The notes below the pieces were generated by a model. It saw only the letters and a list, made by a program, of their open reading frames with translations, was not told the origin of the DNA and made no database searches. The position numbers and the translations under genes were made by a program. From the NCBI RefSeq assembly GCF_008831285.2, contig NC_045147.1:19410581-19474580 (forward strand): a DNA stretch of 64,000 nucleotides, in the 5' to 3' direction. Within the stretch, counting starts at the first letter, position 1; the number at the start of each line of letters is the position of its first letter. Shown one piece after another: positions 4,067 through 49,771 of the stretch. Source of the stretch: Nymphaea colorata (lineage: Eukaryota; Streptophyta; Magnoliopsida; Nymphaeales; Nymphaeaceae).

Positions 4067-5962
4067 TTAGGGCATTACAGAAGAAGAAGATGTACGGAAG
4101 TATTCCCCAGAAGTGACGCGCTTCAGTTCCACAAGGTGATCACTGTTGCTGATTGCCAACGCATCTCTGAGCCCAGCCAGCCACTCTTCATTCTTCCACT
4201 TGTGATCCCCTTGCAGATACAGAGATTGCAGAACAAAATAATAAGTCATTCTCTTCACGTCTCTTACAGAACCATTCCAGCGCAGCTCCTTTAACACACT
4301 GTCCCCTACACCACTCGCCACATGATCGAGATGAGGGATTCTGATGAGAAGACCGTGAGGGAAGCAGCTTTCATCTGCTGTCTGATCCGTATGGCATCCA
4401 ACCGCCTTACCAATATACAGATTCAGCTTGAGCCACAGAACATGCAGTTTTATCAGAACCAATTTCATACTATAATCTGCAAAGCTGCCCATTCTATTAA
4501 TCGGCTGATTCAGACGAACTGGCCATGAATTCATAAAAGTTCTTAAGAAGTTTAGCTTTGCAAAAAAAAGAAAATGTAAAAATTTCAAAATTAGTTAAAA
4601 TAGATAATCTTGAAAGCTTATGATAATTAAAACCAACGAGGCAGAACCACAATAATCAACTCCCAAATCAATACCACCGAACGTTTGTACATTCTGAACA
4701 GATTGAATCAAAATAATACACATCACAGAGACATCAACAATGGCAGGTTTAAATGATATTTATGAAACCAATTCAAGAGCACCACATGTTCTTGAACTAA
4801 ATTTGCAAATTTTGTCAATTTCCTTCTTTATTTAATTTTCGTATATTGTCTACTTGTTCTTTTTTACCGAATTGTTATATATTTTTGACGATACACACCT
4901 AAATCGATTGAGTCAGCCGGTTGAAAGAATCGATGCACGACCGCACCACAATTTCAGGCCCTTCAACTAAAATCGGAACAACCCTTGTGCTATTTGAATT
5001 GAAAACAGCTTCCTCTTAGGAAAAGGAAGATCATAAAGTCGGGTTCTTTTCTCATATTAAATCAGGAGTTGACGCTCATGGTTAGGTTAACGATCTTAGT
5101 TTCAAATCCTGAGCATCGACTAAACAAAAGTAGCTTACTTTGGTAGGAGCTGCAGCGCTGCCCTGCCCTCCGGTGGCTTCCTCCTTCGAGTCATCAGGGT
5201 ACGTCATGTAACCGACCACCTTTTGAACAGTGATACCGACCTCAACCACGCACGTACCGTTGACAAGATACCGGTTCTCCGGGCAGCATAGAGTACTGAA
5301 ACAAATGAAAGATCCATAACAGCAGTGATCTTGAGCTGTAAAGGAATGCTTCTTATCTGTTAAACAACAAGAAGGGAAATGAAAAAAGAGAAAAATATGC
5401 CGCGAAGGTTCGGATAAAATTTTTTTTTGGGCTGCTTTCACAGCAATAATTGGCTTGATTAAACACGCCATTAATCAATATGCAGGATGCAGTAAAAATC
5501 AGCTTAAAGAACTGCCGGCGGAACATAGGAGATCAATTTTAGACATTTAGGCATACTCGCTTTGTCAGACTCCTTGCTTGTTTGATCGACAACACCCAAG
5601 GAAACTTCTGCGTCGACGGACCATTTACCCTGCTGGGTTGGAGAATCCGCGATACACAGGAACAGTCCAAGATGACCTGACGTTAAAGCAGGGACGTTCC
5701 GGTTACAGAGGGAGGCCTTTAACTTCCTGCAAACTCAGCGGAATTTTATGTAAAGTGACAAAAGGACGACTTGAGGACGATGGATATGATGAAGTTGATG
5801 ATGGATATGAAGCGAGTAGGAGAGAGTATACCATTTACAGCCCCCAAAAACAAAAACTTCGGAGTAGTAATTTCCGGTCGATAAATTGGAAATGTTGCCG
5901 ATCTTCCAAGTGCACCCAGTCGAAAGTAGCTCGCCAATCGGCCGTGTTTCCGACGTGTTCAT
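4067..5962 (-). CDS. MATH-ENT protein, copy A
   Basis: Four exons: 5962..5832, 5726..5557, 5356..5139 and 4426..4067. All borders are GT..AG and the phases fit, giving 292 residues. Exons 1-3 encode a MATH (TRAF-like) domain: residues ~15-44 carry the W-K-I-x-N-x-S-x-L strand and the Y-Y-S-E-V-F-V / G-G-C-K-W block, exon 2 the L-F-L-C-I-A-D and W-S-V-D-A-E strands, exon 3 the Y-L-V-N and V-V-E-V-G-I-T-V strands. Exon 4 has a variable linker, then a ~50-residue helical module (residues ~230-282) with the spacing of an ENT domain: FVLQSL, QGDHKW, LRDALAISNSDH, ELKRV. MATH domains bind peptides in partner proteins; ENT domains occur in EMSY-type chromatin proteins. The function here is unknown. 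Start is the ATG shared by copies C, D and E. Confidence 0.75.
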
Positions 5963-6113
5963 GGCTTGCAGGTGAAAGCCTTAGGAGAGATACGTAAGCA
6001 ATTAAGCAAATGGTTGCCAGATGAACTCACAATTGGCTCCACCAGTACATTTGGCGGAACCCGTTGGAAACAAGTTCTTATTCGTACTGGAACTGCTTCT
6101 AGCTATGCGGAAG

Positions 6114-6121
6114 CCTTTATA
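6114..6121 (-). promoter_or_regulatory. TATA box of MATH-ENT copy A
   Basis: Minus-strand TATAAAGG about 155 bases upstream of the start codon. The same box and surrounding leader recur at copies B (10419-10426) and D (19848-19855). Confidence 0.5.
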
Positions 6122-6610
6122 GTTTATACAAACTTTAGGAGAGGTGGAGTTCAATGACCACTCACCAAGTCAAAGGCATCACAATTTTTTAAGAATCTCT
6201 GACGAAATTATATTCCCAACCCACTCTTTTAAGTTTTCTAAATATCACGGATTCCAATTTTTTGCGGAAGCTAGAAGGACATCTGTACTCAAAAGTACAA
6301 TGAGAGAATGTTTGAATGCTACTGCAAAACTAACTTCGTTCATCTGGTTATTGAGTGGGATACAAAACTCCGTCTTAGGCAACTTTCAGTATCAGATGTC
6401 AGAACACCTATGTCTATGCACTTTCAGAAGTTTTCAAAACTTATGTGGCGGATTAGTATCTGATACAGTTACATAAAATTTTACTCAAAACTTACAATGC
6501 AAACGTATTTGCCCTTGACACTTGACGTCTCTCTATCTCTCTCGCTCAGAGCTGGATACAAAACTCTGCGTTTGGCAACGTATGACCTTCTACGGGAAGT
6601 CCAAAGCAAC
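6122..6610. repeat. Array spacer upstream of copy A
   Basis: No gene. This upstream block is repeated behind copy C (14400-14890), and parts behind copies B and D. Frames on the plus strand here (for example near 6144-6476) are kept only because the blocks are recent duplicates. Confidence 0.6.
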
Positions 6611-7480
6611 TTATTTCCCTGAAATCAGACGCTTCAATTCCGTCGCATGATCGCTGTTGCTGATTCCCAAAGCGTCGCTCAGCTCACTTAGCCAAGCCTC
6701 ATTAGACCACTTGTGATCGCCTTTCGTATAAAGAGATTGAAGAACATAGTGGTAGACCTTCCTGTTGCAATCTCTCTGAGAACCACCCAACCATATAGCC
6801 CAATCTCCTGTCACATGTCCAATACATCAGAAACTTTTTAAGAAGAAATCAATTTAAGTAATTCTTATGCAAAAGCAGTTTTAAATTTCTTATGGTTCCA
6901 AAGTATCATGCACAACTTCGAAGATCGTGGGGAAGCTCAAACGAAAATTGCCACATTTATCTATCGCCAATCCACTTTGATTTAGACCGGAATCTTTCAA
7001 TGCGATAAATGCAGATTACGAATTATTATTTTTAAATGTAGAATGTAGAGCCTACTTACTGTGTAGCGTTTTCAAAGAAGCAAATATATTCAAGCACCTA
7101 GGTTGCTAGTTCTAATGAATTTGGTGGGAAAACCCTAAAGTCCAAATTTCATTTTTATTGAAACTTCGTTGATTCAGTTTTTCTTTCCATGTTATCCGAT
7201 ATGAACAATTCAGAAGCATCATTAATTCGTTATCTGTTCCACCTGATACCTTAAACCCCTCTACGTCGCTTTTTCTTGCTCTCTTTCTCACTTGATGTAT
7301 TTTTGTTTTCAGCTTTTTGTTTCTTCTTTCTTTACTGTGCTGATTACTCGGAACTAAGGCTGGGCATCGGGCCTGGGCCGGGCCGGTGGCCTCCTCCTTG
7401 CAGCCATCATGGTACGTTATGTAAACGACCACCTTTTCAAACGTGACACCGACCTCAGCCACACACGTACCGTTAAGAAC
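6611..7480 (-). pseudogene. MATH-ENT relic (ENT exon and part of MATH exon 3)
   Basis: At 6814..6611 an open ENT-type exon reads YHYVLQSLYTKGDHKW, then LSDALGISNSDH and a stop. At about 7478..7370 lies a fragment of MATH exon 3 with the V-A-E-V-G-V-T strand and a V-V-V-Y-I-T-Y block, degraded before its donor. MATH exons 1 and 2 were not found. The piece between is spacer. I read it as the remains of a further array gene; the ENT exon is of the long-exon class by sequence. Confidence 0.65.
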
Positions 7481-7504
7481 TCTTTCTCCAGTAAATGATT
7501 CATT

Positions 7505-7933
7505 TCACGAACTCAGCTGCAGCTAGGTGTACTTTCAAGATGATGGAGGTAATTTTATGGTTTACATTGATTCACTTTTTGAGCTTGATTTTATCATATA
7601 ATTCATGGCTCTAAGTATGATTTATTTGTCAACATTTCGGTAGTATCTTAGTTTTGCAATTCGTGCCTCAAAATGCCCTGTATTGTTTGCTGATGTGTAC
7701 ATTTTATAATGTTAATATTCAAAATCATTTGGGTGAAGTCATGGTTTTGAAGGTGAATATGCAGTCTATAATCATATAATTAGTATGCCTACGTGTGTGA
7801 TACGGTCATATAGTTCTTGTTTTTCTAGTTGATGATTGCGTCTTTTTTCTATTTTGCAGGAGCTACGGGATTCTGTTTCCTGGGAACGCAGGAGATCAAC
7901 GTGATTAAGGTCATACGACCAACGTGATTCTGT
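7505..7933 (+). pseudogene. Duplicated fragment of the UBL5 3' UTR intron and last exon
   Basis: Blocks match 2650-2762, 2874-2922 and 2931-3026 in order, including the acceptor and the first ~50 bases of the terminal exon. Sequence between blocks is missing or replaced. No UBL5 coding sequence was carried along. Directly after it the sequence continues with the match to the array spacer at about 3520, so about 500 bases were lost at the join. Confidence 0.75.
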
Positions 7934-8389
7934 CTCCCTCTTTTTCTCTTGCATTTTGTTTTTTATCTTTTTGTTTCCAGTTTACTTTGCTGATTACTTA
8001 TATCGTGTCAATTTTATCGGATGTATCCGAAGAGACTACTTTGCTGATTACTTGGAACAGCTTGACATCGCGTTTTTGATGATTGTATCCCCATTTTTTG
8101 ACGGCCCATGCGAGTACAGTATAATAAAAGTACGCAGGAAAGAGATTGATATTTTTCTCAGTATGTGTTCATCTGGTTACAGTGTTGGACAGAGAATTCT
8201 GCTTTCATATCAGACTCGATAGAGCTTCAGTAAAATTGGAAAATACGTCTAATTCTCTCGGATTAACATGTAGCAACCGAAAATACATAACCTTGAATTG
8301 TAGATAAAAAAAAACTATTCGCAAGCGAGCAATATCAATTGAAATTTGGAAAACTACTTGCTCTCGATCGGTAGAAGGGCTAGGGGACA

Positions 8390-10267
8390 TTAGGGCATTA
8401 CAGAGGAAGAAGAAGATGCACGGAAGTATTCCCCAGAAGTGACGCGCTTCAGTTCCACAACGTGATCACTGTTGCTGATTGCCAACGCATCCCTAAGCTC
8501 GGCCAGCCACTCTTCGTTCTTCCACTTGTGATCCCCTTGCAGATACAGAGACAGCAGAACAAAATAGTAAGTCATTTTGTTCACGTCTCTTAGAGAACCA
8601 TTCCACCGTAGCTCCTTCGACACACTGTCCCCTACACCGTTCTCCACATAATCGAGGTGAGGGATTCCGATGAGCAGCCCCTCAGGGAAGCAGCTTTCAT
8701 CTGCTGTCTCATCCGTACGGGATCCAACCGCCTTACCGATATCCAGATTCAGCTTGAGCAACAGACATGCAATTATATCAGAACCAATCTCAAACTATAA
8801 TCAGCAAGGCTCCCCATTCTAGTAATCGGCTGATTACGAGTTGGCTACGAATTGAGAAAAATTCTTAAGTATAAACTTTGCAAAAAAAATGTAAAAAATT
8901 CGAAATTAGTTTAAATAGATAACCTTGAAAATTTAAGATAATTAAAATCAACGTGGCAGAACTATAATCAACCTCCAAATCAACACCACAGAAAGTTTGA
9001 TCAATCTGAACCGATACATCAGTGTCATCAACATAAGCTGGTTTAAATAATATCTATCAAACCAATTCAAGAGCACCACATGTTCTTGAACTAATTTTGC
9101 AAATTTTATCAATTTCCTTTTTTATTTAAATTTCCTATATCGTCTACTTATTTGTTTACCGAATTTCTATATATTTTTGACGCTTCACACCTAAATCGAT
9201 TGAGTCGGCTCGGCCGTTTGACAGAATAGTTGCACGACGACACCACAATTTCAGGCCCTTCACCTAATATCGGAACAACCCTTGTGATATTTGAATTGAA
9301 AACAGCTTCCGCTTAGGAAAAGGAAGATCATAAAGTCTGCTTCTTTCTCATTTTAAATCAGGAGGTGCTGCTCATGGTTAGGTTAGCGATCTTAGTTTCA
9401 AATCCTGAGCATCGAGTCGAAAAAAGTAGCTTACTTTGGTAGGAGCTGCGGCGCCGCCCTGCCCTCCGGTGGTTTCCTTCTTCGAGTCATCAGGGTACGT
9501 CCTGTAACCGACCACCTTTTGAACCGTGATAGCGACATTAATAACACACGCATCGTTGACAAGACACCCTTTCACCGGGCAGTGTACAGTAAATGAATTC
9601 TCAAAGAGGCAGTAAATTGCTTGAGGTGTGAAGGAATGCTCCTCATCTGTTAAACAAGAAGAAGGAAATGAGAAAAGAGAAAACTACGCCACGAAGGTTC
9701 GGATAAAAAATTTTCTTGGGGGTGCTTTCACAGCAGTAATTGGCTAGAATAAACGCTCCATTAATCAATCTGCAAGATACAGTAAAAATCAGCTTAAAAA
9801 ACCGCTAGGGGAACAGAGGAGATCAGTTTTAGACATTTAGGCATACTATATTCGGCACTCTCCTTGCTTTTTTGATCGACAACGGCGAAGGAAAATTCTG
9901 CGTCGACGGACCATTGACCGTGCTGCGTTGAAGAGTCCGCGATACACACGAACAGATTAAGAGAAATTGGTGGTGGTAGACCACTATAGTCCATGCTCCA
10001 GGGGTCAACCATTAACTGCCTGCAAATTCAGAGGAATTTTATGGAAAGTGACAAAAGGAAGACTTGAGGACGATGGAGATGCTGAGGTTGATGATGATGA
10101 TGAAGCGAGTAGGTGAGACTGTACCATTTACAGCCGCCAATGACAAAAACACCGGAGTAGTATTGTCTTCTCGAACTTAACTTGGATAGGTTGCCGAGCT
10201 TCCAAGTGCGCCCCGTGGCCCCGGTCGAAAGTAGCTCGCCGAACGGACATGTCTCCGACGTGTCCAG
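8390..10267 (-). CDS. MATH-ENT protein, copy B, with CTG in place of the start ATG
   Basis: Four exons: 10267..10125, 10019..9847, 9646..9435 and 8752..8390. All borders and phases match copy A and the frame is open for 296 codons. Where copies A, C, D and E have ATG, this copy has CTG (10267..10265); an in-frame TAA lies a few codons further upstream, so no earlier ATG can serve. Exon 1 carries an insertion of four residues (ATGR) before the T-W-K-L strand. MATH strands and the C-terminal ENT-like module (FVLLSL, QGDHKW, LRDALAISNSDH, ELKRV) are intact. Either it is translated from CTG or an internal ATG, or it is a very young pseudogene. Confidence 0.6.
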
Positions 10268-10418
10268 GGCTTGCAGGTGAACACCTTAGCACAGATACGT
10301 AAACAATTAAGCAAATGGTTGCCAGATGAACTCACAATTGGCACCACCAGTTCATTTGGCGGAACCCGTTGAAAACAAGTTCTTATTCGTACTGGAACTG
10401 CATCTAGCTATGCGGAAG

Positions 10419-10426
10419 CCTTTATA
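10419..10426 (-). promoter_or_regulatory. TATA box of MATH-ENT copy B
   Basis: Minus-strand TATAAAGG, the same box and leader as in copies A and D, about 150 bases upstream of the expected start. Confidence 0.45.
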
Positions 10427-12683
10427 GTTTATACAAAGTTTAGAGGGGTGGAGTTCAATGACCACTCACCAAGTCCAAGGCATCACAAATTTTAAAGAAT
10501 CTCTTGCGAAATTATATTCCCAACCCACTCTTTTAAGTTTTCCAAATATCAAGGATTCCATTTTTTTGGGAAGCTATAACGACTTCTGTACTCAAGTGTA
10601 AGGCGTTTTCATTGAAGGAAAGGTAATTAGGTACCTGAGTTGAAGTATTAAATCCTATCTCTGTCAAATACCATTGCATGTTCAGATGGATATTCATATT
10701 ACATTTGATAAGAAAAACCGTAAATCGTGATTCCAGTTTGATTGCTAATTAATAGATTCATTTTCTCGTTCTAAGTTTGGCCACTCATATTCAGATAGTT
10801 ATCAGACTATTAAAATTTAAAATTGCTCATGTACAGGAATTCTGGTTAAAATGTGTGATAGAGAATTGTATTAGCCGTAGTTCGTATATCAAGTGGCAGA
10901 TTCCTAATGCTGTGCACTCCCGGAATTCCGACGCATATTTATTGATAAAGAGTGGAGGAGATTTACAGTTTTTAGAAAGACAGACCAGCATCATCAGCAT
11001 GGTGGTTTCCCTGGACACGGTCAACATTGTTTGCCATTCCCCGGTTTCTATCGATGAAGAGTAGATGATTTTTTGACAGATTTTAGAAGGAAGACCTGAC
11101 CTGTAATTTTCCAGGACACCCATTAAGATATTTGCCGTCGAAAAACGTAGTCACTAGGGAAGAAACAGAAATGCAATGTTGGAATCAATATTGAACTTGA
11201 TAAATCATTTAAGAGGAAATTATTGTAATTAAATTCTTATGCAGCTTCTGCAGCCATAGTTATTGCCGCTAAAGCTTCTGCAGTTTCTTCAACCATGTAC
11301 GCAGTAGAGTTCAATAACCCAGTCACCTGAAATCTTTTAAGAGGAAATTAATGTAATTAATTCTTCTGAGAACTTCGTTCGTATGTTATTAAAATAATAT
11401 GCACAACTTCCAAAATCATGGGGAAGCTCAAAGGAAATTTGCCGCACTTATCCATCTCCAATCCACTTTGACGTGGATTAGATTCTTGAATATTACAATC
11501 GATTGCAGATTACAAACTAATATTTTCAACCTGCAGACTGTAGAGCATATTTAGTGTGCAGGCAGACTGTAAAGACTACTTACTGTGTAGCGTTTGCATA
11601 GAAGCAAATGTATTTCAGTACCAGGTTCTCGATCCTGTCTCCGTTGAGTGCCATTGCATGTTTAGGTGAGTACTGGATTTGGCGGGGAGTCCCTGAAATT
11701 CAATTCCATTTTCATTGAAAACTGATTGATTCAGTTTTTCTTTCCATGTTTTACCAGTTCTCCATCACTGTCACGTCTCATGGTATTCTTTTTCTAAACA
11801 GTAGTAGGTCTCAAAAACAAGCTTTGTGAACGCAAATAGTTGTAGGGCGTCCTCAATTGTGTCACATCCTAGTGCATTCTTCTTGTGAACCCTAATAGGT
11901 TTCAAAGAAAGCTTTGGTGAGGGCACCTAGGTGTTTTTTCTTTTCTTTTTTGAGTATTAGGTTTCAAACGAATTCCCAAATCAAAATTACTTGCAATTCC
12001 CAATTTTAACCGTCCGAATTACCATTTTCCTATTCCCGAATCTCAATTCCTGATTTTGACGATTTTCAAAACCAAGCTCACAATTTACAATTGTTTCCAA
12101 TTTAAAGCTCCAATTCCTATCTTTGGAATTCAAAAGAATTTCAAATCAATCTTCAATCATACTTTTTCTGAACTAATTCAAATGTTTTATTATCAAAATC
12201 AAATTCCAAATTTGTTCAAAATTAGCTTCGAAATCTGCACATGAATATGGGAGGAAAATCATCAAATGACTTGTACAAATTGAGTCCAACCACTATAACT
12301 CGCTTTACTTTCGAGGATTTGATACATAAAAAGAAGGATATGGCACAAGGGAGAAGAAGATAAATTGTCCTATTTTGATCATGAACCTCGCTATCCAACA
12401 AGGCCACCAACTACGAGTTACCATGTTGGAAATTTTTAAACATAAAAAAGGATGAGGTGAACCAAACGTCGAGGGGAGAGGAGATGCTTCCATGATTCTT
12501 ATATTATGCCATTTCTTAAACACCAGATGTGCCACCAATTGCATTGATTGAAGTACCATGAAAGCCACACAGAAAAAGAAAAAAAAAACTCCAACCCTTC
12601 ATACTTGTAGAGATCATAGAGCAGAGAACCAGGTTCCTACAATAAGAGATAATTAATAGCCAAAGAAGATTCAGAATTCCTAA
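10427..12683. repeat. Array spacer between copies B and C
   Basis: No supported gene. The stretch 10270-11160 is nearly identical to 19690-20590. The stretch 12280-12660 returns at 17890-18160. A minus-strand frame of ~98 residues near 10827-11123 survives in both duplicates, but has no start or splice context I can support. From ~11800 to 12280 the sequence is AT-rich and unique. Confidence 0.55.
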
Positions 12684-14258
12684 TCACCCAGAAAGAACAT
12701 GCCTAAGATACATGGCGTGATCGCTGCTGCTGATTCCCATAGCCAATCTAAGCTCAGTTAACAATGCTGCCTTTTTCCAAGTAAGCTCACCGTCCTGGGA
12801 CAAAAAACGCAGCACAACAAGATATGCTTTCTCCTTCTCCTCAGTACTCTGACAACCGTCCGAACCCAACTGCAGAAAAGCGATCTTGTCAAAAGCAATA
12901 TTGAACTAGAATTCAACATATAACAACTACATTTAGTGAATAGGACGTCGATTCGGGCGATCAATTGTACATTCAGTTTTGAAAAGAAAACATTTGAAAC
13001 TTTATTTGAATTAAGCATCTCAGTATGACACTATGGATTCAAAACTACTTAGACAATTATGTCCTGGTATTATCAAAATGGGCTTTAAATCGTAGATTAT
13101 TTGGAAAAATTTACATACTTAATCCTTTATTGACATTTCGTATATCGTCTACTTTTTTTTCCCGCAATTTTTATATATTTCTGAATATTAACACCTAAAT
13201 CGATTGAGTCAGCCGTTCGACAGAATCGATGCACGACGGCACAACAATTTCAGGCCCCTCGGCTAACATCGGAACAACCCTTGCGCTATTTGAATTGAAA
13301 ACAGTTTCCACTTCGGAAAAGGAAGACCACAAAGTCGGGTTCCTTTCTCATTTTAAATAAGGAGGTGCCGCTTATGGTTAGGTTAGCGATCATAGATTCA
13401 AATTCTGAGCGTCGACTAGAAAACAGTAGCTTACTTTGGTAGGAGCTGCAGCGCCGCCCTGATCTCCTGTGGTTTCCTCCTTCGAGTCATCAGGGTACGT
13501 CATGTAACCGACCACCTTTTGAACCGTAATATCGACCTCAACCACACACGTGTCGTCGACAAAATACCCTTTCTCCAGGCAGCGTAGAGTTCTCAAATTA
13601 ATGAAATCCTGACTACCGTCAGTGCCAAATTCATACTGTTGAGCTGTAAAGGAACGCCACATATCTGTTAAGCAACAAGGGAAATGAGAAAAGAGAAAAC
13701 TACGACACGAAGGTTCGGATAAGAACTTTTCTTGGGACTGCTTTCACAGCAATAATTGGCTTGATTAAACACGCAGTTAATCAAACTGCAAGATGCAGTA
13801 AAAATCAGATTAAACAACTGCCAGGGGAACAGAGGAGATCTGTTTAGACATTTAGGCATACTCTTTTTGGCGCACTCCATGCCCTTTTGATCGACAACGG
13901 CCAAGGAAAATTCTGCGTCGACGGACCATTGACCGGGCTGGGTTTGGGAGTCCCCGATACACAGGAACAGATCAAGGAAAACATCACCGCAGACGCAACG
14001 GTGGTCAGCCATCAACTTCCTGCAAACTCAGCGGAACTTTATGGAAAGTGAGGAAAGGGCGACTTGAGGAAGAAGGAGATGATGAGGTTGATGATGATGA
14101 TGAAGCGAGTAATTGAGATCATACCACTTACAGCCGCCAATTACAAAAACTTCGGAGTAGTGTTTTCTTCCTTTCCTTAAATTGGAAAAGTTGCCGATCT
14201 TCCAAGTGCACCCCGTCGAAAGTAGCTCACCAGTCGGCCGTGTCTCCGACGTGTTCAT
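12684..14258 (-). CDS. MATH-ENT protein, copy C (short last exon)
   Basis: Four exons: 14258..14125, 14019..13862, 13664..13435 and 12869..12684. All phases fit and the product is 235 residues. Exons 1-3 encode the MATH domain, with W-K-I-G-N-F-S-N-L, G-G-C-K-W, W-S-V-D-A-E-F-S-L-A-V-V and V-V-E-V-D-I-T-V-Q. The last exon is only 62 codons and of a different class from copies A, B and E: it lacks the long linker and reads KAYLVVLRFL, then GELTWKKAALLTELR and GISSSDH, the closest of all copies to the ENT consensus. The upstream leader lost ~17 bases beside the TATA box, leaving TATAAG. It appears intact and is possibly functional. Confidence 0.75.
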
Positions 14259-14892
14259 GGCTTGCGGGTGAAAGCCTTAGCACAGATACGTAAGCAATTA
14301 AGCAAATGGTTGCAGATGAACTCACAATTGGCTCCACCAGTACATTTGGCGGAACCCTTTGGAAACAAGTTCTTATTCGTACTGGATCCGCTTCTTATAG
14401 TTTATACAAACTTTAGGAGAGGTGGAGTTCAATGACCACTCACCAAGTCCAAGGCATCACAAATTTTTAAGAATCTCTTGCGAAATTATATTCCCAACCC
14501 ACTCTTTTAAGTTTTCCAAATATCAAGGATTCCATTTTTTTTGGGAAGCTAGAAGGACTTGTGTACTAAAAAGTACAATGAGAGAATGTTTGAATGCTAC
14601 TGCAAAACTAACTTCATTCATCTGGTTAGAGAGTGGTATACAAAACTTTGTGTTTGGCAACTTTCAGTATCAGATGTCAGAACACCTATTTCTATGCACT
14701 TTCACAAGTTTTCAAAACATATGCGGCGGATCGGTATCTGATACAGTTCGTAAAATTTCACACAGAATGTACAACGCAAGCGTATTTGCCCTCGACACTT
14801 TGACCTCTCTCTATCTATCTCGCTGAAGAGTTGGATACAAAACTCTGCGCTTGGCAACGTATGACCTTCAACGGGAAGTCCAAAGCAACCCA

Positions 14893-15040
14893 TTTCCCTG
14901 AAATCAGACTCTTCAATTCCCTCGCATGATCGCTGTTGCTGATTCCCAAAGCGTCGCTCAGCTCACGCCTTTCGTATGAAGAGATTGAAGGACATAGTGG
15001 TAGGCCTTCCTGTTACAATCTCAATGAGAACCGTCCAATC
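14893..15040 (-). pseudogene. ENT-exon relic with 31-base deletion (1)
   Basis: Matches the ENT exon at 6611-6814, but about 31 bases are missing at the junction 14966/14967, removing the D-H-K-W part and shifting the frame. No MATH exons belong to it. The relic near 21076-21215 carries the same deletion. Confidence 0.65.
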
Positions 15041-18000
15041 ACTGCTACACTTCATGAGCAATTATGTCCAATACGTCAGAAATTTTTTAAGAGGAAATTA
15101 ATGTAATTGATTCTTATGCAAACGCAGTTTTAAATTTCTTAAGGTTACAAAGTATCATGCACAACTTCCAAGATCGTGGGGAAGCTCAAACGAAAATTGC
15201 CGCACTTATCTATCGCCAATCCACTTTGCTTTGGACCCGAATCTTTCAATGCGATAAATGCAGATTACGAATTAGTATTTTTAAATGTAGAATATAAAGC
15301 CTACTTACTGTGTAAACTGTAACGTTTTCAAAGAAGCAAATATATTCAAGCACCTAGTTGGCCAGTTCTACTGAATTTGGTGGGAAAACACTAAAATCCA
15401 AATTCCATTTTTATTGAAACTTCATTGATTCAGTTTTTCTTTCCATGTTATCCGATATGAACAATTCAGAAGCATCATTAATTTATTATCTGTTCCACCT
15501 GATTCATTAAAATTCAAAACGGAAAACATGTTTGAACAGCTTGGTATTGGTCTTATCCTTTAGTTTTAGTGATATCCATCCATAATTTCTCTAGGAACCC
15601 CAAGAAAACAAGTTTCCCTTGGCAATCATCTTGTCTTGGAAGGGAATCAAAAAATGGTGATACCATCTGATCGACTTTGCCCGTTTCTCTGTTTCCTTCA
15701 GGAAGAAGGTACCCCAGTTCCCTCCGTCAAGAAAGTCTAATGAAATGACGAAGTTCAGTGGCGAAAGTTTTCCATTATCACAGTCATCTACTATTGTAAG
15801 CAGAACAAACATGGTACCCGCTTCTCTCATACTATTACAGTATCGGCTTGGCTCTTGGTGGTGGCATGCGCTTAAACCCCTCTCCATCGCTTTTTCTTGC
15901 TCTCTTTCTCTCTTGATGTATTTTTGTTTCTTCTGTACTGTGCTGATTACTTGGAACAGCTTGTCACCACTTTTTTGATAATTGTACTACCATTTTTGAC
16001 TCCTCATGTCAGTACAGTATAATAAAAAAATGCCAGTGCGCAGGAAAGAGCATGATTTTTCTCTTTCAGTCTGTGCTTATGTTCATGGGGTTGTAGTGTC
16101 GCATAGAGAATTCATTTCCAATCTTGTGCTTACGTGATCCTGTTTGATTGCTAATTAATCGATTCATTTTCTCGTTCTAAGTTTGGCCACTCATATTCAG
16201 ATACTTATCAGACATGAACAGTTCAGGAACATCATCTGTTTCACCTCCTTCATTAAATTGAGAATGGAAAACCTGCTTGCAAACATCCCAACTTAGATCC
16301 CCTCTCAAGTTGGATCATATGTCCCGTTGGATTCATCTGCTGTTAATTCCCACAATTGAGTTCTTTTCAGTGCATCAGGAGTTGGATCCACGGTCTGATC
16401 TACAAGTGGATGATGCTCCGGTGCGCGATTTGGGACGGGACTGACCACCTTACTGTAGGGGGCGCCAAGTCCTCAAGTCACTTCACCGGAAAAAAGAAGC
16501 CCTATTCTTTTCCGGTGAAACAGAGGGCTTCGTAACCTCCATGCAGCCTAGGGAGATATATAAAATGAAAAGTTTAGTTGCTGAAGTTTTCTATTAGGCC
16601 ATCTGCCATCTGCTAATGTATATTCTAAATGTCAATATGGGATACCAATTTTTCTCACGCCACAGTATATTAAAAATGCCAACGTAGAGGAAGCTAAATG
16701 GTCTGTTTCAATCTGTGCCTCTGCGACCATCTTTGTTCTTCTGGTTAAAATGTGTGATAGAGAATTGTATTTGGCGTAGTTAGTTTGTCTATCAAGTGGC
16801 AGACAACTAATAGTGTGCACTCCCGGAAATCCGACGCAGTCCTATTGATAAAGGGTGGATAAAATTTACAGTTTTTGGCAAGGCAGACCAGCAACGTTGG
16901 TTTTCCCAGACACAGCTAACATATTTGCCATTGCGCCGGATACCCATTGATAAAGAGTCCATAAAACTTAAACAGATTTTGGACGGAAGACTTGCCCTGT
17001 AATTCCTGCACCCCCATTTAACATATTAGCCGTCGGAAAACGTAACTCACTCGCTTCTCTCTCCTTCTCCCCGATTCACACGGTATGAAAACGATTCGCA
17101 GCTGACGAATATCAACTGAAAGTCCAACTGGGAAAAGCAGTTGCTCTCCAGCAGTGGAATGGGCAAAGGAGAGACAGTCCATTACACAGTCCATAAGGAG
17201 AGAATGTCTTCGAGCTTCTTACTGTAGAGCTAACTTCGTTCATCTGGTTACCAAGTCGGATACAAAACTGTGTTTGCCAACGTACCGCCCAGAATCAGAT
17301 GTCAGAACCCTATTTCTATGCACTTCAGAAGTTTCCATAGGATATGTGGCGGTTGCTCAGATCAGCCAACGAATCGCGTGAGTTCCAAGCGATTTGAGAA
17401 CCTCGGGCTTCAATGTCACCAGATAAAATAATGAAACAGAACAGGCTCATAAACGCAATGTTATAAAAAATCAACAGTGAAATACGATCGGCACAGGTAT
17501 ACCCAATATATTTCTGTGAATATTCCGCTCCAGCCATTCAGCTGAATAGGTAAGAACAGATAAGAAATCTTTAAATTATTCAACTTATAAGTGAATGAAA
17601 AACATGATAATTTGAAATAGTTTAGAATTGCCCGAGCGAGGTTTAGACTTGAGAGTCTCAAATCAGCCAGCGAATCGATCCTTTATATATTCCACTGGCG
17701 GAGCCACATGCGAAAGCCCAAAAGTTTTTATATTTTTACATTGTCATCTTTGATATTTACTATTCTAATGTATATAAATTCTCCTTCAAATCCGACCAAT
17801 TCTTCTGGCTTTGACATGACGGGGAACATCGACAGGAAAAAAACAAATCCTACATTGGCCAACTCAAGATCAAAACACTCCCAAACTGAGTTCCAACTAC
17901 TGTAACCCACTTTACTTTCTAAGATTTGAAACATAAAAAGATGGATATGGCACAAGGGAGAAGAAGAGTAAGTGTCCTATTTTGTTCATGAGCCTCGCTA

Positions 18001-18161
18001 TCCAACAAGGTCACCAACTACGATATGCCACCAACTGCATTGATAGATACCATGAAATCCACAAAAAAAATCTCCAATCTTTCATACATGTAGAGATCAT
18101 AGAGCGGAAAACCAGGTCCCCAAAAAAAGAGATAATTACTAGCCAAGAACGTTCAGAATTC
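15041..18161. repeat. Array spacer between copies C and D
   Basis: No supported gene. Contains array blocks shared with 3160-3800, 6900-7200 and 21290-22320, and a diverged copy of the 10840-11120 block at 16735-16960. The part 16250-16560 is unique and holds a hairpin at 16482-16519. The part 17050-17700 is mostly unique and AT-rich. Confidence 0.5.
16482..16519. repeat. Perfect 12-bp inverted repeat with 14-base loop
   Basis: TTCACCGGAAAA at 16482-16493 pairs exactly with TTTTCCGGTGAA at 16508-16519. It lies in a unique, relatively GC-rich stretch without a gene. Confidence 0.7.
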
Positions 18162-19696
18162 CTAATCCCCCAGAAAGAGCATGCTTAAGATAGCATGATC
18201 GCTAGTGCTGATTCCCAGAACCTCTCTAAGCTCGGTCAGCAATGCTTCCTTTTTCCAAGTAAGCTGAGCTTCCTGGTACAAACACCGCAGCACAATAAGA
18301 TATGCATTCTTCTTCTCCTCAGTACTCTGACAACCGTCAGAACCCAACTGCAGAAAAGCGATCTTGTCAAAAGCAATATTGAACTAGAATTGAACATTTA
18401 ACGACTACATTTAGTGAATAGGACGTCGAATCGGGCTATCAATTATACATTCAGTTTTGAAAAAAAACATTTGAAACTTTATTTGAACTAATCATCTCAA
18501 TCTGACTCCATGGATTCAATATGGATTCAAAACAACTTAGACAATTATAACCAGGTGTTACCAAAATGGGCTTTCAATCATTAAATAATTTTGCAAATTT
18601 AACTAATTTCCTCCTTGTTTACATTTCGTATATCGTATACCTATTTTTTCCCGATTTTTTACATATTTTTGACGATTCACACCTAAATCGATTGAATCAG
18701 CAGTTTGACAGAATCGATGCACAACGGCACAACAATTTCAGACCCTTCACCTAATATCAGAACAACGCTTGTGCTATTTGAATTGAAAACAGCTTCAGCT
18801 GCGGAGAAGGAAGATCACAATGTCGGGTTCTATTCTCATCTTAAATCAGGCGGTGCCTCTCATGGTTAGGTTGGCGTTCTTAGTTTCAAATCCTGAGCAC
18901 CGACTCAAAAAAAGTAGCTTACTGGCGTAGGAGCTGCATAGACGGCCTGCGCTCCGGTGGCTTCCTCCTTCGAGTCATCAGGGAACGTCATGTAACCGAC
19001 TACCTTTCGAACCGTGATACCGACCTCAACCACACACGTATCGTTGACAAGATACTCTTTCTCCGGGCAGTGTAGACTTCCGAAACAAATGAAAGCTGGA
19101 AGACCGCATTGATCTCTTTGAGCTGTAAAGGAATGCTCCATATCTGATAAACAGCAAGAAGGGAAATGAGAAGAGGAAACTACGACACGAAAGTTCGGAT
19201 AAAAAAATTTCTTTGTTTAGCTTTCACAGCAATAATTGGCTTGATTAAACGCGCCATTAAGAGATCAGTTTTAGACATTTAGGCATACTCTTTTTTGCAC
19301 TCTCACTTGCTTTTTTGATCGACAACGGCCAAGGAAAATTCAGCGTCGACGGACCATTGACCATGCTGGGTTGGAGAATCCGCGATACACAAGTACAGAC
19401 CAAGATAACCTGAAGTTACAGTGTTGGAGTCCCAGCGATAGGGGGCAGCCATTAACTTCCTGCAAACTCAGCGGAATTTTATGGAACACTAATAAAAGGA
19501 CGACTTTAGGGCGATGGAGATGATGAGGTTGACGGTGATGATGAAGCGAGTTGGAGAGACTATACCATTTACAGCCGGCAATCACAAAAACTTTGGAGTA
19601 GTATTTTCCGGTCGATAAATTGGAAAAGTTGCCGATCTTCCAAGTGCACCTCGTCGAAAGTAGCTCGCCAATCGGCCGTATCCCCGACGTGTACAT
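18162..19696 (-). pseudogene. MATH-ENT copy D, frameshifted
   Basis: Exons at 19696..19566, 19459..19289, 19143..18923 and 18347..18162 have all splice sites in place and an ATG start. Exon 2 carries one extra base (position 19305) relative to copies A-C, giving TGA at once and breaking the phase into exon 3. The last exon, of the short class of copy C, lacks four bases near its end, so the final residues run out of frame. MATH strands and ENT-like core are still readable. With two independent frame breaks I call it a young pseudogene. Confidence 0.7.
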
Positions 19697-20590
19697 GGCT
19701 TGCAGGTGAAAGCCTTAGGAGAGATACGTAAGCAATTAAGCAAATGGTTGCCAGATGAACTCACAATTGGCTCCACCAGGACATTTCGCGGAACCCGTTG
19801 AAAACAAGTTCTTATTCGTACTGGAACTGCTTCTAGCTATGCGGAAGCCTTTATAGTTTATACAAAGTTTAGGAGGGGTGGAGTTCAATGACCACTCACC
19901 AAGTCCAAGGCATCACAAATTTTAAAGAATCTCTTGCGAAATTATATTCCCAACCCACTCTTTTAAGTTTTCCAAATATCAAGGATTCCATTTTTTTTGG
20001 GAAGCTATAACGACTTCTGTACTCAAGTGTAAGGCGTTTTCATTGAAGGAAAGGTAATTAGGTACCTGAGTTGAAGTATTAGATCCTATCTCTGTCAAAT
20101 ACCATTGCATGTTCAGATGGATATTCATATTACATTTGATAAGAAAAACCCTAAATCGTGATTCCAGTTCGATTGCTAATTAATAGATTCATTTTCTCGT
20201 TCTAAGTTTGGCCACTCATATTCAGATAGTAATCAGACTATATTAAAATTTAAAATTGCTAATGTACAGGAATTCTGGTTAAAACGTATGATTGAGAATC
20301 GTATTTGCCGTAGTTCGTATCTCAAGTGGCAGATCACTAATGGTGTGCACTCGCGGAATTCCGACACATGCTTACTCATAAAGAGTGGAGGAGATTTACA
20401 GTTTTTAGAAAGACAGACCACCATTATCAGCATGGTGGTTTCCCTGGACACGGTCAACATTGTTTGCCATTCCCCGGTTTCTATCGGTGAAGAGTAGATA
20501 ATTTTTTCACAGATTTTAGAAGGAAGACCTGGCCTGTAATTTTCCAGGACACCCATTAAGATATTTGCCGTCGAAAAACGTAGTCACTAG
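19690..20590. repeat. Spacer duplicate of 10270-11160
   Basis: About 0.9 kb nearly identical to the region upstream of copy B, with few substitutions. It is one of the youngest duplications in the array. Confidence 0.75.
19848..19855 (-). promoter_or_regulatory. TATA box of MATH-ENT copy D
   Basis: Minus-strand TATAAAGG in a leader nearly identical to that of copies A and B, so the promoter was duplicated with the gene. Confidence 0.4.
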
Positions 20591-21075
20591 CACCTCTCTC
20601 CCTCTCTATCTCCGATTTACACGGTATGGAAATGAATCACGGGTGACGAATGTCAACTGCAAATCAAACTGGCAGAACTAGATGCTCTGTAGCAGTAAAG
20701 TGGCAAAGAGAGAAAGTCCATTACACAGTCCACTAAAAAGTACAAGCCGAGAATGTTTGTATGCTACTACAAAGCTAACTTCGTTCATCTGGTTATAGAG
20801 TGGGATATAAAACTCTGTGTTTGGCAACGTACCGCCCAGTATCAGATGTCAGAACAGCTATTTCTATATTTCTATGCACTTTTACAAGTTTTCAAAACAT
20901 AAGCGGCGGATCGGTATCTGATACAGTTCATAAAATTTTACACAGAATTTACAACGCAAACGTATTTGCCCTCGACACTTTGACCTCTCTCTATCTATCT
21001 CGCTGAAGAGTTGGATACAAAACTCTGCGTTTGGCAACGTATGTATGACCTTCAACGGGAAGTCCAAAGCAACCT

Positions 21076-21215
21076 GTTTCACTGAAATCAGACTCTTCAA
21101 TTCCCTCGCATGATCGCCGTTGCTGATTCCCAAAGCGTCGCTCAGCTCACGCCTTTCGTATAAAGAGATTGAAGAACATAGTGGTAGGCCTTCCTCCCGT
21201 TACAATCTCTCGGAG
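21076..21215 (-). pseudogene. ENT-exon relic with 31-base deletion (2)
   Basis: Same relic as at 14893-15040, with the same missing block at the junction 21150/21151. The surrounding spacer also matches, so both descend from one already damaged copy. Confidence 0.65.
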
Positions 21216-23653
21216 AACCATCCAATCATAGCTACTCCTCATGAGCATTTATGTGGTCGGCTCTAGCCGCTGTAGAGCTCAATCACCTGTCACATGTCCA
21301 ATACATCAGAAATTTATTAAGAGGAAATTAATGTAATTAATTCTTATGCAAAGGCAGTTTTTAATTTCTTATGGTTCCAAAGTATCATACTCAACTTCCA
21401 AGATCGTGGGGAAGCTCAAACGAAAATTGCCGCATTGCAGATTACGAATTAGTATTTTTAAATGTAGACTGTAGAGACCACTTACTGTATAGCGTTTTCA
21501 AAGAAGCAAATATATTCAAGTACCTAATTCTCTACTGAATTTTGTGGGAAAACCCTAAAATCCAAATTCCATCTTTATTGAAAACTCATTGATTCAGTTT
21601 TTCTTTCCCTGTTACTTATCCGATATGAACAATTTAGAAGCATCATCATCTGTTCCACCTGATTCATTAAAATTTAAAACGGAAAAGTTGTTTGAACAGA
21701 TTTGTATTGGTCTTATTCTTTAGTTTTAGTGATATCCATCTATAATTTCTCTAGGAACCGCAAGAAAACAAGTTTCCTTAGGCAATCATCCTGTCTTGAA
21801 AGGGAATAAAAAAAGGGTGATGCCATCTGATCGACTTTGCTTGTTTCTGTGTTTCCTTCAGGAAGAAGGTACCCCGGCTCCCTCCGTCAAGAAAGTCTAA
21901 TGAAATGAGCAAGTTCGGTGGCAAAAGTTTTCTAATATCAAAAGTTTTTCCATTATGACAGTCATTTACTATTGTAAGCAGAACAAACATGGGTAGCATC
22001 TTCTCTCATACTGTTACAGTATCCACTTGGGCTCTTGGTCGTGGCATGCGCTTAAACCCCTCTCCATCTCTTTTCCTTGCTCTCTTTCTCTCTTGATGAA
22101 TTTTGTTTCGGCCTTTTGTTTCTTGTTTAATGTGCTGATTACTGGAACAGCTTGTCACCACTTTTTTGATAATTGTACCAACATTGTTTACTCCTCATGC
22201 CAGTACAGTATAATAAAAAAAATGGCAGTGCGCAAGAAAGGGCATGATTTTTCTCTTCAGTCTGTGCTTATGTTCATGGGGTTGTAGTGTCTAGTAAAAA
22301 ATTCTGTGTTTGCCATTCTTTCAATCTTTTGAGACTTTCTTAGGAAATAGTAATTCTCAATCACGATACTGCAACTTTCAAGTTTTCTAAAAGCCACAAC
22401 TTCCACGATCTTGGGGAAGCTAAATGGACATCATCCCAGCTATCTATCTTCTTTGGTAAACAATAATGTTTGTAACATGCATGCAGACTGTAGATCGAGC
22501 CTATACTTAATAATGTAAAGCTTCCTCCATAGAATGAAGGAATCCCAGTACTTAGTCCAGTCACTAGGTCCTTTCTCCGGTAGATACCACCGCTTGTTTA
22601 GTTATCTAAATCAAAATGTAATTCCAATTTCATTGCTAATAAATTCATTTAGTTTCTATCTTTCCGAGTTGGACTACGCCGATTCAGATATATACTTAGT
22701 TATCAGATATTAACTATTTTCGTCGTCATTCCTAGCTCTTCCACCTCCTCCATTAAAATTGAAGCCGATACACCTGCTTGTGAACATCTCAACAACTTAC
22801 TAACATGCATTAACAGTGGAATGTGGCTCGCAATATTGTACGTACCCAGGTGCCCTAATATATTATATATTCACTTTAAAAAATTATATTTATTAGTATA
22901 TTCATTTGGACCTCACCTATTTTGTTTGTACTCTCCTATAAAAAATTATATTTGTTTGTGCCGTGCTAGTTGGGTTTTATGCCCCAGAGCATAGTGGTTT
23001 GGAACCTGATCTGATTCTTGCGATATCTGAAAACTAGATTCATTTCATAAATTAAGACTTTGTAGCCGAATCATCCAAATTAAGGGGTCAACAAAAATAA
23101 ATAATCTTTTTAGGGCTCCCTATCCTTAACTCCAAGAAAATTAATCTCCCTCTCTCTCGAACTTTTGCAGGAAATTGATTAACCAAGGATTCATCTTCAA
23201 AATACGCTTCGTTGTTGACAATTAATCAGTAAAACATTAAGCTTTTGCCATCTATAACGAAATAACATGAAGATCATGATTGCCTTTGTTAATAAATTTT
23301 GAGCTCCGTTAAATAACTTTCTAGCATTAGAAAAGGCAAGAGCTTCCAAATAATTATGTTAGGTATTGATAACAAGAATTATTATTTGGATGTAGTTAAT
23401 CATTTTTTTGTATTATTAGTAGAGTTAAAGAGTCTAATGCAAGCTCATGAACTTAGAGTAACTTCGAAGATGACGAGCGAAAGATCTTTGTAGCATACAA
23501 AACTGATCATTCAGATGAAGCAACAACCCGTCGGCTTATAGCATTCAATAAATAGATATATTCTTCGACATATACACAAAGATGAAAGAAATTGACAGAT
23601 AGGGTGACCAATGCCTAGAGGGATACACACCACAGGAGGAAACGGCAAGCAGA
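21216..23653. other. Array spacer, then unique AT-rich sequence
   Basis: Up to about 22320 the blocks repeat those at 15050-16110 and near UBL5. From about 22620 to 23653 the sequence is AT-rich and unique, and I see no gene in it. Confidence 0.5.
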
Positions 23654-25679
23654 TTACTCTTTAAACGGTCGCGATGCAGGAATGCATTCCCCATAAAGCA
23701 CACGCTTTAGTTGCATGATGTGATCATCGTTGCTGATTCCAAGTGCGCCTCTGAGCTCGGTCAGCCAAACCTCATTCTTCCACTTGTGGTCACCTTGTAG
23801 ATGCAGAGACTGCAACACAAAACGATACGCCAACTCATTCACTTCTCTCTCCGATCCATATCCCTCCACCCCTTTTTGGTAACCATCAATGCTCCTCGAA
23901 CGCCTGTGCTGAGGGATGTTGGTGGGCAGCAGACTATCTGGAGGGACTGTCTGAACAACACGGCTTTCCGGCTTCTCGTCAACGTCCGGCTTCTGCTTGG
24001 GAGAAGCCGATGCATCTTCCATCTTCTTTACAGTCTCCAGGGCACCACTCTTTTGCTGTATAATTTGAGAAAACGACCATGTTTCACTTTTCGCTTTACT
24101 TTAAGCCCCTTTTGGCCACAACACAAAAGAAAAAAGGGCCAGTACCCATTTGGTGTGTTTAGTTTTTATGAAAATTTAATTTTAAATTTATTTAAGTTTA
24201 GTTGCTGCATTTTATATCTTTTAATTAAGTCCAATTGATGAGTTTACGTTGGTTTGATTATTGAGGTTTGATTAAGAGAAGCTATGTCTAGTTTGTCATT
24301 ATAAAACTTATCTGCTAGGAAATTAACTCTACCGATAAAGTATTAATTATTCAGACTTGGATTTATTTGCAATTAGTATCATATCTATATCCAGGTCCAA
24401 ATTTCTTTCAGTTTCTATATCCATTATCAAATTGATAAGACGCCGATGCCAATATTCACAATATTGGTGAGATCGACCTTCTCTCCCACCTGATCCCCGA
24501 TATCATCTACCAATCACAGTCTAACTCAAATCAACACTCATCAATACCAGCCTCATAGTGCCTTTTTTTGAAAATCGAATCAAAGAGGTGGAGCCAAGGG
24601 AGGGGCAGCAGTGGCCCTGGTGCAAAACCATTTAAAAAAAAAAATTACATGTAAGTTTTAAAAAAATATATATTTATCCTATATAAAAAGTTTGAGAAAT
24701 GACATTTCAACACTTGTCAAAATTTTGAAAATAATTCAGCCACCTTCATGTAAAATTTTTAGCTCTCCTCCTAGAGAAAGGTATTAGATAGCATGCTTCT
24801 ATGATGCCGCTAAAAAGGTCAAAGAAAGAGTGAGAGAGAGACGATGCAAAGGTGAGCCTGTGTGCAGGAGACCACCTCTCGCAAGCTACTCATTTACCTT
24901 GCCCTGAGCTGCTGCTTCGACAGACTCTCCATCGTCGTACATTCTGTAACCGACCGTCTTCTGGACAGAGATACCAACCTCAACCAAACACGAATCATTG
25001 ACAAGATATCCTTTTTCTGGGCTGCGTAGATCACTGAGAGCCAAGATGGACCTATGGCCCCAGTCTTTCTCCTGTGCCGTAAACTTATGCTCAAAATCTG
25101 TCAAACCACCAGAACAGAAAACAGGAACAGAAATTATGCAGCCAGAAGTCGGTTCAAAGACCTTCATGATGCTGCATAAGGAGCAATATTTTGGCAGCAA
25201 TCTGCATGCTATGTGAAGAAGGAAGACATGGAAAAATCTGTGATCTTATGGATGACTGAAAAGGAGACTACCGCCATATGTAAATGAACTCAACCAACAA
25301 AGGAGATCTATTTAGGAAATGTCGGGGAACCTTTTATGGTACCGATCTTCTTGCTCAATTGATTGATCACCGCCAAGGAATGCTCGGCCTCCACGCTCCA
25401 TCCGTCTGGTTGAGTCGAAGAGTCGGCGATGCCCAAGAACAGCCCCAACGATGATTTATTCTGACGGACGTTGGGAAAGATCAACAGCTTCCTGAAAATG
25501 CAGGGTATATATGAAGACGATAATGAGAGAGAGAGAGAGAGAGAGTACCATCTGCAGCCGCCGACAACGAAGACGTCGGAGTAGTATTTCTCTTTGTTCA
25601 TCTTGGAGAAGTTGTCGATCTTCCAAATGAACCGCGTCGGAAAAAGCTTGCCGACCGGCCGTTGCTCCGTTGAGGTCAT
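23654..25679 (-). CDS. MATH-ENT protein, copy E (most diverged, intact)
   Basis: Four exons: 25679..25549, 25491..25331, 25097..24898 and 24055..23654. Phases fit and the product is 297 residues. The ATG gives an exon 1 of 131 bases, exactly as in copies A and D. The MATH domain spans residues ~12-150: W-K-I-D-N-F-S-K-M, Y-Y-S-D-V-F-V-V-G-G-C-R-W, then L-F-L-G-I-A-D, W-S-V-E-A-E-H-S-L-A-V-I and Y-L-V-N-D-S. Exon 4 adds a charged, Pro/Ser-rich linker and the ENT-like module: FVLQSLHLQGDHKW, TELRGALGISNDDH, LKRVL. Intron 1 is only 57 bases with a GA microsatellite. It lies outside the recent duplications and probably represents the older lineage. Confidence 0.8.
24590..24790. repeat. Possible transposon relic in intron 3 of copy E
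   Basis: A short GC-rich start with G-rich words, then an A-rich run and AT-rich body. The G-rich words resemble those near 41412-41440 and 44640-44690. I see no terminal repeats, so this stays tentative. Confidence 0.25.
25525..25545. repeat. GA microsatellite in intron 1 of copy E
   Basis: About ten GA units directly inside the donor of a 57-base intron (CT repeat on the coding strand). Confidence 0.9.
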
Positions 25680-38401: not shown

Positions 38402-38833
38402 CTACTTCTCCTCGTTTTGGAAGGCAGAAATAGGGAAAGTCCTTCCCAACCCTCCTGGGCCAATAAAGGTGATCTTAGTATTGGTGTCGTCCACAAACAT
38501 ATCAGTCAGGGTCACCCAGATCAGCAGCTCCTTGCTCTTCACCCCAGTCATCTTCTTGAACTTGCCCTTCTCACAATAGGCGGTGACCTCGGTGTTGTAG
38601 GACACCATCTTGCTGATCTTCTTGAAGTGGTGTTCCTTCCTCTTCTTCTGCTTCAGCCAGACATAGCCGTTCTCCCTGATGATCCCGACTTCTAAGATGT
38701 CCTCCAAGGGGAGGAGGCCATTGGGCAGTTCCAACTCCTTGAGAAGATCCAAGGTTTTCTGCCTGCAAAGCTCGTCCCCATGGTAGATCTCTGCCTTGGC
38801 CTTGAGGTCCTCGTCCATGACCAAGGAGGACAT
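38402..38833 (-). CDS. DUF538 family protein (SVB-like), copy 1
   Basis: Single-exon frame of 143 residues starting MSSLVMDEDLKAKAEIYHGD. It carries the family hallmarks in order: the A-E-I-Y-H-G-D-E-L-C opening, a Leu-rich helix ending L-P-N-G-L-L-P-L-E-D-I, G-Y-V-W-L-K-Q-K-K, Y-N-T-E-V-T-A-Y, K-K-M-T-G-V-K-S-K-E-L-L and F-I-G-P-G-G-L-G-R-T-F-P. DUF538 proteins such as Arabidopsis SVB are small plant proteins linked to trichome growth and stress; their biochemical role is unsettled. No signal peptide is visible, so it is likely cytosolic. A frame upstream of the chosen ATG is unrelated to the family. A TATA box lies 112-119 bases upstream. The second copy is 2.1 kb away. Confidence 0.9.
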   Translation of the reverse strand: MSSLVMDEDLKAKAEIYHGDELCRQKTLDLLKELELPNGLLPLEDILEVGIIRENGYVWLKQKKRKEHHFKKISKMVSYNTEVTAYCEKGKFKKMTGVKSKELLIWVTLTDMFVDDTNTKITFIGPGGLGRTFPISAFQNEEK

Positions 38834-38944
38834 TTTGATTTCTTGGGGAGGCGAGCAAATCAGACGTGTGTGTGTGTGCGGAGGAGAGAAAAGGGGGGGA
38901 AAAGCAATCGGCAGGTGATGGGAATTCCCTTCCCCCAACGACTG

Positions 38945-38952
38945 TATTTATA
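38945..38952 (-). promoter_or_regulatory. TATA box of DUF538 copy 1
   Basis: TATAAATA on the minus strand, 112-119 bases upstream of the start codon, conserved with copy 2. Confidence 0.6.
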
Positions 38953-40939: not shown

Positions 40940-41024
40940 TTTTGTTTCTTGGGGAGGCGAGCAAATCAGGGCTCCTGTGAGAAGGGATCAGCAGGAGATG
41001 GGAATTCCCACCTTCTGAAGACTG

Positions 41025-49424: not shown

Positions 49425-49771
49425 TACTCCACAAAGTACGCACGTAAGGCTTCTTTAGTGAGTTCGGCACCGTCCATCGTAGGAAACCAATGGACGAGAT
49501 CGGAGGGCGCCTGTTTCCAGTTCACCGCGGCACTCAAGACGCCGTCTCTGAAAGCGAATGATGCGTTTCAAGGAATTGGGTCTTCCCCGATTTCCGGCAA
49601 ACCAGAAGGGTTTTGCCGAATAACGAAGTTCCCGCCCGTGCGGGTGACCTGGGGCGTCTTCTGATCGCTTTTCTGAGGTAACAAGGCAAAGCTCCTTCTC
49701 TTTGATGAGTTGCAGAAGCCTAATTTCTGGTTTTGATTCTTCAGCAATTTGTTCTCTTCTCGACACCATCC

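Follow-up and report, generated by a model that had tools for sequence, protein, structure and literature searches.

Does the 64,000-nucleotide stretch of Nymphaea colorata DNA analyzed here (contig NC_045147.1, positions 19,410,581 to 19,474,580; hereafter the window) encode a gene family that joins a MATH domain to an ENT domain, and from which genes would the two halves derive? The minus strand from position 25679 of the window, the first base of the copy F ATG, to position 4067, the last stop-codon base of copy A, carries five four-exon MATH + ENT gene copies in the order F, E, D, C, A. Judged from splice sites, intron phase and reading frame, this array very probably represents a family of chimeric MATH-ENT genes. 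An earlier, sequence-only reading had assigned three MATH exons and an ENT-bearing last exon to each array gene. This arrangement is confirmed in copies A, C, D, E and F; the word "each" calls for some reservation, as E is frameshifted, C lacks an ATG and orphan ENT exons are interspersed.

Both domains are recognized in the array genes

With the MATH_2 profile (PF22486, curated cut-off 32 bits), all four scored spliced proteins lie above the cut-off (F, 106.5 bits, E 1.7e-30; D, 75.7 bits; A, 70.9 bits; C, 52.8 bits); copy E was left out of spliced-protein scoring owing to its frameshift. For copy F, no single frame scores above 54.2 bits, against the full value after splicing; exons 1–3 thus yield a complete MATH domain only once joined. 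Neither the UCH catalytic domain nor the BTB domain was matched at E 0.1 in the four spliced proteins (A, C, D, F), nor was the Agenet domain matched in them, and none of the eight listed matches of a genome search for Agenet falls on the array contig (C10). A weak MATH-like match elsewhere in the window (36498-36545, E 0.028) has no supporting frame and was judged a chance hit.

Scored singly with the ENT profile (PF03735, curated cut-off 28.5 bits), the last exons of all five copies pass (A 29.6, C 30.1, D 35.2, E 35.4 and F 29.7 bits), and an orphan exon, B, stays below at 24.1 bits (5/6 single exons pass). Genome-wide searches covered 407.8 Mb in 783 contigs; across these 408 Mb the same five exons pass the ENT cut-off (E 9.1e-6 to 1.2e-4) and B does not. 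The spliced D protein also exceeds it, at 32.1 bits. In a search with a profile of the six array exons, the EMSY ENT structures 1uz3, 1utu and 2fmm came out at E-values between 1.8e-6 and 3.4e-6, and just one further match was obtained, at 0.72. The Pfam scores and this profile match rule out a chance resemblance to ENT and support what had been proposed for the last exon.

The predicted model of copy F exon 4 (six alignment rows) has a mean predicted local distance difference test score (pLDDT) of 64.7, with values of ~45-50 across the linker; the ten-residue blocks of residues 71-120 score 78-94, and there are three confident helices (69-86, 95-105 and 109-120). Foldseek ranked five EMSY chains (1utu, 1uz3, 2fmm) at the top with probabilities of 0.91-0.98, at E-values (0.9-1.9, best 0.93) that are weak for so small a piece. 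VIA-align placed the T. brucei ENT domain 5zx1 first (Z 7.2), followed by EMSY (Z 6.5-6.8), and gave an unrelated eIF2B piece Z 5.8; as Z values of 6.5-7.2 are no proof by themselves for helical folds, it is the sequence profile match that carries weight. The fold comparison suggested by the sequence-only reading thus came out in favor of ENT, with ENT domains ranked first by both programs.

Gene anatomy

Predicted exon borders follow the GT-AG rule in 5/5 copies, and the introns have phases 2, 1 and 0 in the four models that read through (A, C, D, F). Copies F, A and D are open throughout. When exons 1–3 of C, D and E are compared in length with those of copy A, the difference is zero or a multiple of three in 8/9 comparisons, the exception being exon 2 of copy E. 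In the last-exon frames of D and C the first ATG falls within the ENT match, so that their ENT domains require an upstream exon. Intron 3 is the longest intron in every copy (565-842 bases).

25679-23654, minus strand: copy F, whole gene
25549..25679, minus: copy F exon 1, ATG and start of MATH
25343..25491, minus: copy F exon 2, MATH
24898..25097, minus: copy F exon 3, end of MATH with the D-W-G motif retained
23654..24055, minus: copy F exon 4, linker, ENT and stop (Pfam, profile search, fold comparison)
19696-18162, minus: copy E, whole gene
19566..19696, minus: copy E exon 1, MATH
19289..19459, minus: copy E exon 2, MATH, with one surplus base and an in-frame TGA close to the exon end
18923..19143, minus: copy E exon 3, MATH
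18162..18347, minus: copy E exon 4, ENT of a second lineage, with a 4-base deletion toward the end
14258-12684, minus: copy D, whole gene
14125..14258, minus: copy D exon 1, ATG and MATH
13862..14019, minus: copy D exon 2, MATH
13435..13664, minus: copy D exon 3, MATH
13125..13126, strand not assigned: point in copy D intron 3 where alignment to A and C stops
12684..12869, minus: copy D exon 4, ENT of the second lineage
10267-8390, minus: copy C, whole gene
10125..10267, minus: copy C exon 1, CTG instead of ATG, MATH
9847..10019, minus: copy C exon 2, MATH
9435..9646, minus: copy C exon 3, MATH
8390..8752, minus: copy C exon 4, linker and ENT
5962-4067, minus: copy A, whole gene
5832..5962, minus: copy A exon 1, ATG and MATH
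5557..5726, minus: copy A exon 2, MATH
5139..5356, minus: copy A exon 3, MATH
4067..4426, minus: copy A exon 4, linker and ENT; start less certain, with a second in-frame AG upstream

Intron 1 of copy F (25492-25548) comprises 57 bases, with a TC-rich repeat at its start; it reads through in frame, and its retention would therefore insert 19 residues within MATH. The CTG of copy C stands in the context GCC-CTG-G (10256-10275), where a near-cognate start is possible. To the left of the window, C10:19400600-19410580 gave no tblastn match to further array members at E 0.05.

Candidate sources of the two halves in the same genome

The best matches to the copy F MATH domain outside the array are loci L005 on contig C1 (48%) and L004 on C2 (49%). 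Compared exon by exon, copy F MATH and the L005 gene share 44-63% identity; two L005 introns coincide with array introns 1 and 2, one interrupting the same Trp codon in phase 2 and the following one having the same position in phase 1. In the L005 exon after these, MATH gives way to a UCH catalytic domain, which identifies L005 as UBP12/13-like. Array exon 3 can be aligned roughly twenty residues beyond the MATH match and then diverges ahead of the UCH start. It is this post-MATH stretch, together with the similarity itself, that on sequence evidence singles out UBP12/13-like deubiquitinases as the apparent kin of the array MATH domains.

For ENT, the best match outside the array is L009 (C5:14508342-14508662; 49% identity, E 3.2e-25), which occupies the C-terminal end of an open exon 326 codons long. 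On that strand an Agenet domain precedes it by ~11.7 kb, and the two probably belong to a single Agenet-ENT gene. Twelve of the 18 listed matches of the genome ENT search are outside the array, at eight places including L009. In a tree of 14 short rows, with weak internal resolution and a program warning on long branches, the array ENTs (A, C, D, E, F, B) and L009 were grouped (97/96) and the other seven stood apart. A separate capture of the D/E ENT from EMSY-like or L006-L008 genes was considered and set aside, as the tree unites the D/E ENT with those of L009 and the other array exons (A, C, F, B); an old sister lineage appears likelier.

Probable joint descent and exchange of ENT halves

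Synonymous divergence (dS) between A and F is nearly identical in the two parts (MATH 1.13, ENT 1.11), as expected if MATH and ENT had moved together since the F/A split, and C-F values are similar (1.13 and 1.22); dS approaches saturation at values near or above 1. Nonsynonymous divergence between A and F is below synonymous divergence in both parts (Fisher p 2.9e-7 for MATH and 1.1e-4 for ENT, uncorrected as are the other tests).

Within the A-C and D-E pairs the alignment spans the whole gene. Between A/C and D/E it runs from upstream of exon 1 into intron 3 and then ends, at 13125-13126 in D and, against D, at 4826 in A and 9121 in C. Cross-group dS is 0.16-0.34 in MATH and 1.2-1.9 in ENT, which indicates that the MATH halves were recently shared and that the ENT halves represent two old lineages. 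Recombination or conversion terminating in intron 3 best explains this pattern. The genome has no further match to the D/E half, and the A/C half recurs as a broken fragment on contig C8 at 86% identity. This fragment, a frameshifted A/C-type ENT exon (L016, 8600-8894), is not accompanied by a tblastn match to MATH in the 9.9 kb examined.

Two variable blocks in the MATH domain

When copies A, C, D and the broken copy E are compared, their amino-acid differences cluster in two blocks, one at the beginning of exon 2 and one surrounding the D-W-G site in exon 3. The highest-scoring 12-column window among the 160 ungapped columns reached 23, a value attained by 4/20,000 permutations, and the second scored 20 (0/20,000). 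In an alignment of copy F with USP7 the two blocks correspond to both sides of the USP7 peptide groove. Arg104 of USP7 presumably has a role at this groove, for which a literature search gave no paper. One study describes Asp164 and Trp165 of USP7 as critical for OTUD4 binding (PMC12047801), and this D-W pair is kept in copy F.

Within the blocks dS is raised (0.18-0.90) alongside nonsynonymous divergence (dN), and divergence is lower in the flanks (K of 0.12-0.17 in introns and 0.03-0.07 upstream). A ratio of dN to dS (omega) above 1 is not claimed for the blocks, as dS is also high there and the alignment uncertain. The pattern fits old variants held apart during homogenization of the flanks, and also alignment error or relaxed constraint. 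Two 71-base queries designed around possible donor cassettes matched only themselves, not even other array copies, although queries of this length are too short to show absence. The A-C comparison shows constraint on the ENT part (omega 0.31, p 0.0011); the contrast of this part with MATH is significant with the blocks (p 0.009) and weakly so without them (p 0.039); between D and E no such contrast is seen (p 0.83).

Alternative explanations and possible decay within the array

The copies are interspersed with three orphan ENT exons, two of which have a common frame-shifting deletion. Because both relics carry the same internal deletion, they were probably duplicated after breaking.

6611..6784, minus: orphan ENT exon B, open, with no complete MATH part
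7388..7480, minus: scrap of MATH exon 3, 5' of orphan B
14866..15032, minus: orphan ENT relic with frame-shifting deletion and stop
21050..21219, minus: orphan ENT relic with the identical frame-shifting deletion

Several observations weigh against a family of intact MATH-ENT genes derived as outlined above. The ENT scores of spliced F (28.2 bits), A (28.3) and C (28.1) fall 0.2-0.4 bits under the cut-off, which, with the best Foldseek E-value of only 0.93 and the Z of 5.8 for an unrelated helical protein, would allow the last exon to be a generic three-helix block. This is scarcely credible, given that five exons pass the Pfam cut-off on their own, that three EMSY ENT entries stand clear of the next profile match, and that identity to the L009 ENT exon reaches 49-52%. 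The splice borders were set by eye with the reading frame already known, and one could suppose that the MATH and ENT exons are separate transcripts that merely adjoin: intron 3 is long in each copy, exon 3 of copy A can extend 18 codons to a stop, and solitary ENT exons do occur. Such an arrangement would, however, have to account for the GT donor of exon 3 and AG acceptor of exon 4 in phase 0 in A, C, D and F (the acceptors picked knowing the frame), for the retention of the same sites in copy E, for the position of the first ATG within ENT in D and C, and for the equal A-F dS of both parts, and we consider it quite improbable. The dS values of D-F (0.98 in MATH vs 1.65 in ENT) and E-F (1.15 vs 2.09) are unequal, a mismatch that we attribute to the exchange of ENT halves. 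Regarding the source of MATH, the genes L001/L002 are interrupted at comparable positions, as judged without defined splice sites, and hence introns alone do not single out UBP12/13; a MATH tree of nine rows did not separate F, UBP, L001/L002 and A/C/D.

Decay of the recent copies is a rival of greater substance, which we hold to be possible if somewhat doubtful. Under this scenario the fusion was once functional, and perhaps still is in F, the recent copies are degenerating duplicates, and the unusual MATH blocks of A, C, D and E reflect relaxed constraint and not new specificities. It draws on the extra base in copy E that creates an in-frame TGA near the end of exon 2 and the 4-base deletion in its ENT exon, on the CTG that copy C has where other copies have ATG, on the orphan exons, on the A-C MATH omega of 0.98 (p 1), which lacks a sign of constraint and also fits relaxed constraint, and on the D-E ENT, in which constraint is not significant (p 0.17). 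Decay is harder to reconcile with exon lengths that stay in frame in nearly all comparisons, with the constrained A-C ENT, with copies A, D and F being open from end to end, and with differences piled in two blocks instead of being spread.

Relation to known systems and proposed function

No paper pairing MATH with ENT was found in the open-licence PMC literature, and plant protein databases may contain such a protein without comment; this agrees with the statement in the sequence-only reading that no described class is known to join the two. In PMC10218331, MATH groups of Arabidopsis and rice are given as MATH-only, MATH-BPM, MATH-UBP and MATH-PEARLI-4, six MATH classes are mentioned for Brassica rapa, and tandem expansion is described for potato MATH genes. 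The array resembles the plant MATH-UBP proteins UBP12/UBP13, deubiquitinases of the USP7 type, in the identity of copy F MATH to L005, the placement of introns 1 and 2 and the D-W-G motif kept in F; it differs in having an ENT exon in place of a UCH match and altered groove loops in A, C, D and E. Like plant Agenet-ENT and EMSY-like proteins, as in L009, it has ENT at the C-terminal end of its exon, but it carries MATH and no Agenet match. With MATH-BTB and MATH-only proteins it shares the MATH domain and, as in potato, tandem expansion, but it carries ENT and no BTB match.

Overall, we favor as reasonably likely an origin in which the 5' MATH exons of a UBP12/13-type deubiquitinase, stopping ahead of the catalytic domain, would have been followed by an ENT-bearing last exon, its ENT closest to that of a probable Agenet-ENT gene, with the product serving as an adaptor. 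Both likely parental gene types would then be present in the same genome, with UBP12/13-like genes as the source type for MATH and, elsewhere, an ENT gene on a separate contig, and the array would offer natural examples of a deubiquitinase targeting domain retained without its enzyme and of ENT halves swapped between paralogues.

The role as a non-enzymatic adaptor, taken by itself, is put forward tentatively, and the coupling of peptide recognition to dimerization or chromatin that the sequence-only reading proposed is likewise conjectural. MATH would bind short peptide motifs, and ENT would pair two molecules or dock on a nuclear partner; ENT reportedly co-occurs with Agenet in plant chromatin proteins (PMC4634149). 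According to PMC6704089, the MATH domains of UBP12/13 are necessary for binding of GI (GIGANTEA), which the protease and C-terminal parts do not mediate, and an enzyme-free MATH joined to ENT would consequently be an adaptor or competitor. As it keeps the D-W groove residues, copy F may compete with or bridge UBP12/13 clients, and such an enzyme-free, possibly dimerizing relative would be a candidate competitor for GIGANTEA binding. The groove loops of A, C, D and E are changed and the D-W pair is absent, so that USP7-like peptide binding is doubtful for these copies; they would have different targets, or none at all. Through the two variable blocks, target choice is open to direct testing. 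A more far-reaching model, which we regard as unlikely, is a modular recognition system with a deubiquitinase-derived MATH groove, two contact loops diversified and kept apart amid homogenized flanks, and ENT halves swapped via intron 3; if true, it would resemble other hypervariable recognition families, e.g., those of immunity, and ENT would anchor recognition on a chromatin or dimer platform.

Other genes in and beside the window

Tandem DUF538 open frames lie on the minus strand at 38402-38947 and 40508-40987, and a 381-codon open frame at 49724-50869 has F-box and beta-propeller matches. To the left of the window, two open frames (L017, 318-716 and 4136-4792) have a cysteine pattern that we take to resemble that of small lipid-transfer proteins.

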